Source of the DNA: a virus
DNA: 22,725 nucleotides
Strand: one strand, 5' to 3'
Virus record (IMG/VR): IMGVR_UViG_3300009183_000387
Span: 1 to 22,725 of that record
The position numbers and the translations under genes are program-made. Below are positions 4,416 to 12,653 of this stretch, in pieces (positions within the stretch are counted from its first letter, which is position 1; every line of letters starts with the position of its first letter). The notes under the pieces are model-generated. The model had not been told where the DNA came from. It did not search any database and worked only from the letters and a program-made list of their open reading frames with translations.

Positions 4416-4574
4416 ATGGATAATGAATTTGATATAGTATTAAAAGCAAGACCTGACTTGACTCGTGCAGATTTGTATGACATAATAGATATTATGGATG
4501 TAGGTGATACAATGCTGGAATCAGCTAACAAATACTATCCACTTAACAAAGGAGCAGGAGAGTGCGGAGCCTAG
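4416..4574 (+). CDS. Small ORF between helicase and DNA polymerase
   Basis: A 52-aa ORF starting directly after the helicase stop (TAA then ATG at 4416) and ending inside the first codons of the DNA polymerase gene. The sequence is MDNEFDIVLKARPDLTRAD... with a likely helical middle (DLYDIIDIMDVGDTMLES). It fills an otherwise non-coding 146-base gap and its 3' end carries the polymerase ribosome binding site (AAAGGAG at 4548-4554). I do not recognise a family. No strong ribosome binding site of its own is visible beyond ATGAGGA in the helicase end, so it may depend on coupling. Confidence 0.58.
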   Translation: MDNEFDIVLKARPDLTRADLYDIIDIMDVGDTMLESANKYYPLNKGAGECGA

Positions 4575-5731
4575 TTTTAGACGTTGAAACAACCATCAGC
4601 AATAAGGGAAACTCATTTGACCAATCAAACAAACTATGTTACATTGGGATAACAGATGCTAATGGTAATGACTGCTATGCAATTGAATACGGAAATGATC
4701 CTTACCGTAATAAACTAGACGAGGTGCAAAAAAGAATTGATGATGCTGAAATATTGGTTGGCTTTAATCTTAAGTTTGATTTGCATTGGGTTAGGAAATA
4801 TGGAATTAACTTTGTGGGTAAGCGTGTTTGGGATTGTCAGCTGGTACATTTTATACTTACGGGACAACAATATCCCTATCCAAGTCTTAACAGTGTCGCT
4901 GCTTACTATAATTTGGGTAGTAAACTTGATGTTGTTGCTACAGAATATTGGAGCAATAAAATAGATACACCAAACATCCCTGCAGATATCCTTGAAGAGT
5001 ATCTACTAGGTGATTTGCAGTTAACGCAAAAAGTATATGAGAAACAACAAGAAGAATTTGCGTTATGTACAAAACAAATGCAAAGATTAATTAGTTTACA
5101 TAACCAAGACTTATTGGTTTTAGAGGAGATGGAATACAATGGTATACTATACGATGAAGAGGGATGTAATGAGGGAGCTAAAGATCTTGTATTACGGATC
5201 AGTGCTATTGACAACGGGCTTTATCAATATCATTCTCTTGCTGAGTTCAATCCTTCCAGCGGTGAGCATGTATCTTCTTTACTCTATGGCGGGACAATTA
5301 AGGTTAAAAGAAGAGAAATCATTGGAACTTTTAAAACTGGTGAAAGAGCGGGCCAACCTAAAGAAAAATGGGTTGAACACTTAATACCATTTGAAAGAAT
5401 GGTAACACCATTAAAAAGATCTGAGTTAGAAAAAGAGGGTTACTTCTCAACTGATGAGGCCACACTTAAAGGGTTACGAGGTACTAAAAAAGCTAAAGAT
5501 TTAATAGAACTTATCTTAACCAGATCTACCCTAGAAAAAAGATTAACAGCTTATTATAGAGGACTGGTTGAGCTTAGAACTCATATGAACTGGCCTATAA
5601 ATAAATTACATGGGCAACTTAACCAATGTGTAGCTAGAACAGGTAGACTATCATCTAGTAAACCTAACTTGCAAAACTTTGATGGTGAAATTAAACAATT
5701 ATTTGGGAGTAAGTATGCTGTTACAAGCTGA
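4562..5731 (+). CDS. DNA polymerase family A, N-terminal part (3'-5' exonuclease and thumb)
   Basis: 389 aa. The proofreading domain is intact: DVE (D7, E9) is Exo I, GFNLKFD (N69, D73) Exo II, and YLLGD (Y147, D151) Exo III. The thumb follows, and TGRLSSSKPNLQN (360-372) is the conserved motif that precedes the palm in PolA enzymes. The frame then stops at TGA (5729-5731), just before the motif A aspartate; that motif and the rest of the catalytic core continue in the +1 frame (next entry). The start is GTG at 4562, seven bases after AAAGGAG. No extra domain or intein is seen. Either the polymerase works as two chains, a frameshift joins them, or this is a sequence error. Confidence 0.86.
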   Translation: MRSLVLDVETTISNKGNSFDQSNKLCYIGITDANGNDCYAIEYGNDPYRNKLDEVQKRIDDAEILVGFNLKFDLHWVRKYGINFVGKRVWDCQLVHFILTGQQYPYPSLNSVAAYYNLGSKLDVVATEYWSNKIDTPNIPADILEEYLLGDLQLTQKVYEKQQEEFALCTKQMQRLISLHNQDLLVLEEMEYNGILYDEEGCNEGAKDLVLRISAIDNGLYQYHSLAEFNPSSGEHVSSLLYGGTIKVKRREIIGTFKTGERAGQPKEKWVEHLIPFERMVTPLKRSELEKEGYFSTDEATLKGLRGTKKAKDLIELILTRSTLEKRLTAYYRGLVELRTHMNWPINKLHGQLNQCVARTGRLSSSKPNLQNFDGEIKQLFGSKYAVTS

Positions 5732-6431
5732 TGCTAAGGCACTAGAATGGGTATGTGCAGCTTACTTAAGTCAAGATCCAATAGCAATTGAGGAGGTATT
5801 AAATAATGTTGATCAACATAGTGATAACCAAGAAAGATTTGGATTACCAAGTAGACTGGTCGCAAAGACTTTCGTCTTCAGACTTATATATGGAGGGTCA
5901 GCCTGGAGCTATGCAAGGGATCCCGATTTTAAAAACATTGGTGGAGAAACTTTCTGGCAAGGAGTTATTGATCAATTCTATGCAAAATATGTACGACTCG
6001 GAGAGTGGCATGTTGACATTGTCAATGACGCTAAAAGAGATAGAAAATTAACTATGCCTACAGGACGAATCTATTATTACGAACCTGAGGTTAGAAGTGG
6101 ACAAGCTAAATGGCCAAGAACAAAGATATTAAATTACCCTGTACAAGGGTTAGGAGCTGACCTAATGGCTATAGCAAGAGTTTCTTTGAGTAATAGACTT
6201 AAAGATATGCAAGGAATCAAACTAATAAATACTGTACATGATTCAATTATACTTGACTTTGATTCTAAAGTATGGGATAATATTAGTATAGTATCAATAG
6301 TTGATAAATGTTTTACCGATATCCCATTGAACTTTAAGAAGTTATTTGGGGTAGATTTTAACCTTCCCATGAGGGTCGAGTGTCAAGTTGGACCTAACTG
6401 GGGTAACATGGAGATAGTGAATGTTAATTAA
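5715..6431 (+). CDS. DNA polymerase family A, C-terminal catalytic part
   Basis: 238 aa from ATG 5715 (the frame itself opens further upstream). It begins MLLQADAKALEW, where D6 is the motif A metal ligand. Motif B (O helix) is RLVAKTFVFRLIYG with R47, K51, F55, Y59 and G60 matching Klenow R754, K758, F762, Y766 and G767; the next Gly is Arg here. Motif C is TVHDSI, with Ser in place of the usual Glu. F at the 762 position is reported as typical of lytic phages. GGGAG at 5705-5709 sits 5 bases before this ATG, so independent translation is credible. The 3' end overlaps the SSB gene by 11 bases. With the previous entry it makes one complete polymerase. Confidence 0.86.
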   Translation: MLLQADAKALEWVCAAYLSQDPIAIEEVLNNVDQHSDNQERFGLPSRLVAKTFVFRLIYGGSAWSYARDPDFKNIGGETFWQGVIDQFYAKYVRLGEWHVDIVNDAKRDRKLTMPTGRIYYYEPEVRSGQAKWPRTKILNYPVQGLGADLMAIARVSLSNRLKDMQGIKLINTVHDSIILDFDSKVWDNISIVSIVDKCFTDIPLNFKKLFGVDFNLPMRVECQVGPNWGNMEIVNVN

Positions 6432-11590: not shown

Positions 11591-11721
11591 TTACCTGGAG
11601 TTTAATACAAGGTTGTACCTTTGGTTTAGAACTAGTAGATGGTAAGATGATAGATCCTAATAGTGAAGCAGTGTATTTAGTAATAGACTTATTTTTATTC
11701 AGGGCAGTAATAGATATTTAA
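11587..11721 (+). CDS. Small ORF after reductase gene, unknown function
   Basis: 44 aa, MITWSLIQGCTFGLELVDGK..., with a hydrophobic C-terminal half (AVYLVIDLFLFRAVIDI) that could contact the membrane or be a beta element. It starts in an ATGA overlap with the reductase stop and its own stop provides the beginning of the AAAGGAG site of the next gene. Small proteins of similar WSLIxGxxFGxE form occur in other phages, by memory. Translation would rely on coupling. Function unknown. Confidence 0.55.
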   Translation: MITWSLIQGCTFGLELVDGKMIDPNSEAVYLVIDLFLFRAVIDI

Positions 11722-11731
11722 AGGAGAAAAC

Positions 11732-11899
11732 ATGCAGTATACGCAAGTGCAAATTAACAAGGTAGACAATGGTTATTTAGTAACAGCAAATAAAGTTGTC
11801 TTTGGTCAACCACAACCTGAACAGACTATTAAAGTCTTTCATGAATGGGACTTAGTAGAACAGTTTCTAAATCCTAAAGCAACATTAGCATCAGTATAA
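11732..11899 (+). CDS. Small ORF closing the plus-strand block, unknown function
   Basis: 55 aa, MQYTQVQINKVDNGYLVTANKVVF..., a likely small beta protein with a helical end (FHEWDLVEQFLNPKA). It has an excellent ribosome binding site (AAAGGAG, then 5 bases, then ATG), which together with its position before a terminator supports it as real. The layout (strand, NGYLV strand, xIKVF strand, then helix) is shared by small accessory phage proteins of unknown role. It is the last plus-strand gene; the terminator begins 6 bases after its stop. Confidence 0.66.
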   Translation: MQYTQVQINKVDNGYLVTANKVVFGQPQPEQTIKVFHEWDLVEQFLNPKATLASV

Positions 11900-11904
11900 A
11901 TAAC

Positions 11905-11929
11905 AAAGCCCCTTAATCGGGGCTTTTTT
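11905..11929 (+). terminator. Rho-independent terminator, probably bidirectional
   Basis: Stem AAAGCCCC (11905-11912) pairs with GGGGCTTT (11919-11926) around a 6-base loop, followed by T residues to 11929. It ends the plus-strand block. On the minus strand the same stem follows the pqqA stop by only a few bases and is trailed by TTTGTTATTT after the CTTT arm, so it can serve both converging transcripts. Confidence 0.88.
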
Positions 11930-11933
11930 ATTA

Positions 11934-12005
11934 TTACTTATTCATTACATACATTGTAACTTCGAAACCGAAACGCATTTCAGTAGCAGCGGGTTTAGTC
12001 CACAT
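11934..12005 (-). CDS. pqqA: PqqA, precursor peptide of pyrroloquinoline quinone
   Basis: A 23-aa peptide, exactly the usual PqqA size. It opens MWTKPAA, continues MRFGF, and carries the core E15-V-T-M-Y19, followed by a short tail ending MNK. The Glu and Tyr separated by three residues are the two side chains that the radical SAM enzyme PqqE (with chaperone PqqD) crosslinks to build PQQ, the redox cofactor of methanol, glucose and other periplasmic dehydrogenases. AAGGAGA (12011-12017) lies 5 bases before the ATG, and an extended -10 promoter lies 40-50 bases upstream. No pqqB-E gene is visible here, so the host would supply the maturation enzymes. It is the last minus-strand gene, after the tail-fibre-like gene. 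This gene is short enough to be missed by gene finders. Confidence 0.9.
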
Positions 12006-12041
12006 AGTAATCTCCTTAAAAGTTAATGTAAAGTTTTCACT

Positions 12042-12061
12042 CTACCCAATAATTATACCAT
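12042..12061 (-). promoter_or_regulatory. Extended -10 promoter of pqqA
   Basis: On the minus strand ATGGTATAAT-N3-TGGGTAG is read from 12061 down to 12042, with TATAAT at 12057-12052 and TG-G before it. No good -35 is present at 17 bases (ATGATT), typical of extended -10 promoters. Start would fall near 12045, inside TGGGTAG, giving a 40-base leader with the AAGGAGA site. The same core is found at 9304-9323 on the other strand. Confidence 0.72.
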
Positions 12062-12101
12062 AATGAATGAAAACAATCATCAGTAAAACCATGAATCTAT
12101 A

Positions 12102-12653
12102 CTAAGTAGCTTGTGTTTGAGCTGTTAAAATACCATTAGTAAATGTCATACTACCTTGTGTTCCTAAAGCAGTTAAAGCTGCTGTAGTAATAGTAGCTGT
12201 AATACCTGTATTCTGAGTAGCCATAGTACCTAACCCTAGGTTAGTTCTAGCAGTAGCAGCACTAGCTAAGTCTGATAGATTATTAGCACGATAGGCATAG
12301 GTTGTATCAGATCCTGTAGCAGTAACACCTAAGTTAGTCCTAGCTCCCGCTGCAGTGGTAGCCCCTGTACCACCATTAGCTACGGTTAAAGGTATAGCAG
12401 GGAACGCTTGTACAATTGCATACTCAGCGGCAGTTAAATGATAATATTGTGAAGCAATACCACCTTGAATACTCTGTAAAGCATTATGCTGTCTAGTCTG
12501 AATGTTTAATAAATTAGATCCTGTAAAGTCAATAGACGTCCAAGCAATAGAAGATTGTTGCACAAGCAATTGAGAAACAGCAAAAAACCAATCACGCCAT
12601 ACAAATACGTCCGTAATTGGGTTGTTAGGTATTGGAGGTAATTGAATAGCCAT
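12102..12653 (-). CDS. Short tail-fibre-like virion protein
   Basis: 183 aa. The N-terminal part (PPIPNNPITDVFVWRDWFF) is likely the virion attachment region. The middle has YYHLTAAEYAIVQAF, a pattern common in tail fibres. The rest is low-complexity Thr/Ala/Gly repeats, including NGGTGATTAAGARTNLG and NNLSDLASAATARTNLGLG, the usual shaft repeats of fibre proteins. No chaperone or receptor domain follows, so it may be an adapter or a short spike stem, and the receptor tip may be elsewhere. It overlaps the end of the large ejection protein by one base (TAATG). It is the last structural gene of the minus block. Confidence 0.75.
   Translation of the reverse strand: MAIQLPPIPNNPITDVFVWRDWFFAVSQLLVQQSSIAWTSIDFTGSNLLNIQTRQHNALQSIQGGIASQYYHLTAAEYAIVQAFPAIPLTVANGGTGATTAAGARTNLGVTATGSDTTYAYRANNLSDLASAATARTNLGLGTMATQNTGITATITTAALTALGTQGSMTFTNGILTAQTQAT

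Follow-up and report, generated by a model that had tools for sequence, protein, structure and literature searches.

The pqqA Gene and Its Genomic Setting

The window analysed here, a stretch of 22,725 nucleotides from a virus record of IMG/VR, contains a pqqA gene at positions 11934–12005 on the minus strand. The gene is 72 bp long and comprises 23 codons and a stop, with an ATG start, exactly as an earlier interpretation made from the letters alone (hereafter the sequence-only reading) had described it. The profile search which that reading had proposed placed the peptide above the cut-off of both available models: the Pfam PqqA model (PF08042) gave 42.4 bits (E 6e-11; curated cut-off 21.1) and the NCBIfam PqqA equivalog (TIGR02107) gave 40.4 bits (E 2e-10; cut-off 20). 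The peptide of 23 residues falls within the PqqA size of about 22–24, is letter-identical to the chromosomal PqqA of Methylophilaceae and possesses E15 and Y19 in the spacing E-x-x-x-Y. The Glu and Tyr so spaced are the residues of PqqA that are converted into PQQ. Judged by its sequence, the product is a true PqqA, and the match is far from chance.

The gene content of the window, which includes a helicase, a DNA polymerase, a ribonucleotide reductase (RNR), a head closure protein and a tail fibre, identifies the contig as phage. The upstream neighbour of pqqA (12102–12653, minus strand) encodes a tail-fibre-like protein and is the last gene of a minus-strand structural block; downstream lies a convergent 55-aa ORF (11732–11899, plus strand) with no assigned function that belongs to a conserved neighbour family. 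Both are outside the pqqA unit. Contamination with host DNA was rejected as an explanation, given that phage isolates carry pqqA, the window gene content is phage-like and there is one copy per phage record. The host is most likely a methylotroph, a Methylophilaceae bacterium. That it is a methylotroph, as guessed in the sequence-only reading, is strongly supported, because all nine pqqA-bearing isolates infect Methylophilales and the encoded peptide equals that of the host.

A separate feature of the window is the DNA polymerase at 4562–6431, which is divided between two overlapping ORFs in different frames (4562–5731 and 5679–6431). Since the polymerase of phage MEP402 is likewise two-part, the split is probably a lineage trait; frameshifting or an error is also possible.

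Promoter, Leader and Terminator

The predicted unit reads, 5′ to 3′ on the minus strand, motif A, extended −10, hairpin, ribosome-binding site, ORF and terminator. Motif A (TCATGGTTTTACTGAT, 12079–12094) is an operator-like element 37 nt upstream of the −10 that also occurs in host pqqA promoters. The extended −10 element (TGGTATAAT, 12052–12060) is a perfect match and is kept in the related contigs L259, L260, L262 and L263. The fold contains a predicted hairpin (GTAGAGT-GAAA-ACTTTAC, 12028–12045) close to where the transcript is predicted to begin; it occurs once in the window and is kept in L260, L262 and L263. The ribosome-binding site AAGGAGA (12011–12017), conserved in relatives, was found 5 nt before the ATG, where the sequence-only reading had placed it, and the terminator that it saw right after the gene was also confirmed: a bidirectional intrinsic terminator with 8 pairs, 5 of them G-C, lies directly past the stop (11905–11926) and is near-identical in L260 and L262.

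The extended −10 noted in the same reading is present and conserved; taken alone, it is not rarer than chance in the window (4 found vs. 2.7 expected), and TGNTATAAT alone is not enriched there either. What gives the element weight is its conservation in relatives. A generic scan for promoters was of no help, with 3 sites vs. 4.6 in shuffles. The predicted whole transcript has a more stable fold than its shuffles (z −3.1), and the terminator contributes to this value. By these predicted signals, the pqqA of the window is an autonomous, moron-like transcription unit.

Relatives at the Same Locus

The gene was found at the same locus in all four relatives that cover it (L259, L260, L262 and L263), with a near-identical leader, so that the conservation of position that the sequence-only reading had suggested checking was borne out. 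L259, a 46-kb IMG/VR contig, is 99.98% identical to the window over 20 kb. In L262, where the aligned DNA elsewhere is mostly 79–87% identical to the window, the stretch of about 100 nt preceding the ATG matches it exactly, and the ORF has changed codons and two changed residues. The gene is not universal, and its prevalence is incomplete in some lineages. The relative ct2os315, whose RNR is 73% identical, has no pqqA beside the RNR and gave no tblastn match. Among MEP402-type terminase relatives, 2 of 18 carry the gene, and among Venkman-type contigs of at least 22 kb, 5 of 6 do; many contigs are partial, which blurs prevalence estimated from terminase relatives.

Distribution among Phages

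A tblastn search over 50,697 phage records returned ten phage matches, namely nine isolates (Venkman, P19250A, MEP301, MEP401, MEP402, Melnitz and three variants), all infecting Methylophilales, and a Manatee Spring phage, which encodes the identical peptide. The pqqA-bearing phages include a T4-like myovirus, podoviruses of several kinds and a siphovirus. The gene is unannotated in the records of cultured methylophages examined; in Melnitz and the Manatee Spring phage, an ORF is annotated on the opposite strand at this place. The main text of the papers on Venkman, MEP301, Melnitz and MEP401/402 does not mention pqqA.

Degenerate DNA patterns applied to IMG/VR yielded at least 120 pqqA contigs, and a sub-pattern accounting for 7 of the first 120 matches listed itself gives at least 120. 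By a rough extrapolation from this sample, which is not random, more than 1000 IMG/VR contigs may carry the gene. PqqA types unlike the Methylophilaceae peptide were also found on viral contigs (MWTKPTYExIRLGFEVTMYFKxR; WTTPxAQDMRFGFEITMYIANR; MAWTTPSAQDMRFGFEITMYIANR). The contigs bearing the first two (L012, L021, L023, L029, L036, L045, L053, L061; L011, L063, L070, L089), some of 148–166 kb, possibly belong to phages of other PQQ makers. Matches labelled as Acinetobacter phage, the only ones assigned to other hosts, were rejected, as the contigs look bacterial. Two records, CAKLQF020000010 (L008) and CAKLQH020000055, are filed as Acinetobacter phage MD-2021a; in the former, pqqBCDE, ppk and other bacterial genes adjoin pqqA, so that this record seems to be a bacterial contig under a wrong label.

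The sequence-only reading knew of no characterised phage pqqA. The gene is not wholly unreported: Lake Baikal virus VP_266 was described with a viral PqqA in 2020 (Coutinho et al. 2020, PMC7678222), and viral pqqA also appears, with no further detail, in a reservoir survey of 2026 (PMC13188868). Phage pqqA is not wholly new as a kind; the idea put forward in that reading stands and reaches further than stated there.

Selection and Stand-Alone Status

Phage genes were searched with a DNA pattern that left codons 15 and 19 free. Of the unique phage genes among the matches listed (at least 120), 117 had GAA and 3 had GAG at codon 15, giving Glu in 120/120, and 61 had TAC and 59 had TAT at codon 19, giving Tyr in 120/120. 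The conservation of both residues, which the sequence-only reading had named as a check, is therefore complete in this set. Among the matches listed, 109 unique coding sequences encode 48 peptides, with a dN/dS of about 0.10 and of 0.18 at codons not named by the search. These comparisons indicate that phage pqqA is under strong purifying selection.

Each of 50 whole viral records has exactly one pqqA. No pqqE scored over the cut-off in any of the 50, and the host would therefore have to supply PqqE; a methanol dehydrogenase is encoded in one of them. Contig L546, unlike the single-copy records, has two tandem pqqA genes (11629–11685 and 11763–11819). The flanking genes define approximately 99 gene contexts among the matches listed, and in 40 cases among them both neighbours of pqqA are antisense to it. 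Contexts were counted by flanking-gene families; single-linkage clustering by shared proteins had merged most lineages. Terminator-like hairpins lie 3′ of 49 of the 121 copies among the matches listed, compared with 11 of 2080 random stretches, and a hold-out set gave a similar picture (26/118 among the matches listed vs. 10/2400 in the control).

Regulatory Signals Shared with Hosts

Motif A was defined on a first sample and then checked on a hold-out phage set. It was present in 59/124 phage leaders among the matches listed, in 59/127 host pqqA leaders and in 44/13314 control windows; the hold-out phages gave 53/117 (matches listed) vs. 41/11511 control windows. In phages the motif starts 37 nt before the −10, and in hosts a copy lies at 60–61 nt, often with a looser second one at 36–37 nt. 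In six host genomes (G001, G002, G003, G033, G067 and G069) scanned for the tandem dyad TMATGAWWWTMMKKAG-N6-TTMATGR, comparison of coordinates placed 18 of the 19 matches directly before pqqA. The sole other match lies near a cupin-like gene in L630. The dyad is a candidate operator almost exclusive to pqqA promoters in hosts.

In about 11–12 phage contigs, all without motif A, a different element lies directly upstream of pqqA, a putative leader RNA with the consensus UCAAG-NNNN-GACYU...CUCUC-N'N'N'N'-UGAUCUG (L107:3031–3108, L092:6017–6098, L085:624–701, L048:809–886 and others). It was also found in 14/14 OM43-clade genomes searched, with one strong match each, directly before a pqqA (e.g., L275:1501–1590), and is absent from the window. 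It consists of a 4-pair covarying stem within an invariant UC/GA clasp. Across 26 sequences, 99.4% of cells were paired and 32 were changed on both sides, compared with 0 of 500 shuffles; since the stem had been picked out visually from some of these sequences, a fairer test is given by the OM43 sequences that were added and by the slid-partner control, which the stem clearly passes. At the gathering threshold, the leader RNA matched no Rfam family. ROSE_3 RNA thermometers scored above the Rfam gathering score in two of the same contigs (L107:1445–1510 and L092:4506–4572) and were rejected as an identity for the leader RNA, as they lie elsewhere on those contigs. The leader RNA is a candidate new riboregulator.

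Phage pqqA thus appears to use host regulatory signals: some phages share the operator and its spacing with the hosts, and others share the leader RNA. A more far-reaching proposal would be that methylotroph phages have built PQQ supply into infection through pqqA-dedicated regulation and that the leader RNA is an undescribed riboregulator, possibly sensing PQQ or a PQQ intermediate. We regard this as possible but rather doubtful; if true, a one-peptide phage gene plugs into a pqqA-dedicated regulatory system.

A Proposed Role in PQQ Supply

The best explanation, and one in which we have considerable confidence, is that this is a genuine pqqA, autonomous in a methylotroph phage, acting as a dosage gene that feeds host PqqD, PqqE, PqqB and PqqC and so supplies PQQ. 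Upon infection, the phage gene would yield extra PqqA peptide; host PqqD would bind it, PqqE would cross-link Glu15 to Tyr19, and a host peptidase, PqqB and PqqC would complete PQQ. The identity of the window peptide with that of the host lends indirect support to its being a substrate of PqqE with PqqD. The PQQ supply for the XoxF/MxaF methanol dehydrogenase would thereby be held up, and electrons and formaldehyde-derived carbon would keep flowing for phage synthesis. Expression of the gene, processing of the peptide by the host and a benefit to the phage are what we infer from the data above, and the phage copy may be a minimal means of holding PQQ supply as host transcription fades.

One PqqA is consumed per PQQ by PqqE, PqqD, PqqB and PqqC, which are reused; since the peptide is consumed one for one, a single 72-bp gene would be the cheapest route to PQQ. 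All 121 Methylophilaceae genomes have pqqA, with 1–12 copies each, and the rest of the pathway (pqqBCDE) is present and typically single-copy in members of this family that have been studied (PMC4109929), which fits precursor dosage as the control point. The precursor may nevertheless not be limiting, because hosts already have several pqqA copies. In Acetobacter, extra pqqAB raised PQQ by 29%, and overexpression of the whole operon raises it far more than pqqAB does (PMC7936290).

The same data can be read in other ways. Phage PqqA could occupy PqqD/PqqE as a decoy, lowering host PQQ and diverting host metabolism; the substrate is indeed encoded alone, with no maturation enzymes, and enough of it might conceivably saturate PqqE. 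One would expect Glu15 or Tyr19 to be lost or changed in a decoy, whereas both cross-linked residues are kept in 120/120 copies among the matches listed and the window peptide is identical to the host's, so that competition with host PqqA, raised as an alternative in the sequence-only reading, finds no support in the sequences. With one pqqA contig also carrying a methanol dehydrogenase, which points to boosting, we think a decoy quite unlikely. The purifying selection that keeps the coding sequence also bears on the idea that the host pqqA regulator is titrated by the operators of phage DNA as this replicates, raising or lowering host pqqA expression. An operator almost dedicated to pqqA in hosts (18/19 matches) and kept at a fixed distance from the −10 in about half of the phage copies would suit such a role, but it is missing from about half of them, and titration seems very unlikely.

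Least credible is a neutral hitch-hiker, a host gene acquired through recombination and of no consequence to the phage. Its small size, many insertion contexts and host-like promoter would be expected of such a gene; the dN/dS of about 0.1 already disfavours it, the leader and terminator are conserved, and the gene occurs in unrelated phage types and in very many contigs, which makes neutrality highly improbable. PQQ might also serve beyond methanol dehydrogenase, as a redox cofactor or antioxidant, or as a signal. The PqqA types unlike the Methylophilaceae peptide, which may stem from phages that infect other PQQ makers, are in keeping with this; all isolates with pqqA, however, infect methylotrophs, and such a second role appears unlikely.

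If PQQ supply is indeed the function, the metabolic hijack is an unusual one, in which the phage supplies no enzyme but a substrate peptide that a cofactor pathway consumes. At 23 codons, a very common phage gene has been overlooked by annotation because of its length. The hypothesis of viral steering of the methanol step of the carbon cycle is testable in existing phage–host pairs (H5P1 with Venkman or Melnitz; FZCC0133 with MEP401), and the analysis has also exposed, in the hosts, an almost pqqA-specific putative operator and a structured leader RNA.

Comparison with Known Systems

The nearest counterparts are the orphan pqqA copies of Methylophilaceae (PMC4109929), which share with the phage genes the identical 23-aa peptide, scattered copies, the same operator or leader RNA and a similar ribosome-binding site. 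The phage genes differ in having a single proximal operator at 37 nt, where hosts have a tandem pair at 60 and 37 nt, and in lying on a phage genome, often with their own terminator. Autonomous promoter–gene–terminator cassettes in many contexts, often antisense to their neighbours, are likewise characteristic of phage morons, and phage pqqA has its own predicted promoter and terminator in differing contexts. Most known morons belong to temperate phages and carry virulence or exclusion functions, whereas the cargo here is metabolic. In being located on genuine viral genomes, in having a homologue among host metabolic genes and in being under selection in phages, pqqA resembles an auxiliary metabolic gene. 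Like cyanophage psbA, it is a host-like gene that would sustain a central energy pathway while infection proceeds; unlike psbA, it encodes, in 72 bp, the consumed peptide substrate of a cofactor pathway and no enzyme or photosystem protein. For VP_266, too, it was proposed that phage PqqA raises the PQQ available to methanol oxidation, in one metagenomic population where it accompanies a viral methanol dehydrogenase (PMC7678222); the pqqA described here stands alone, spans unrelated phages including isolates and has its selection and regulation documented.
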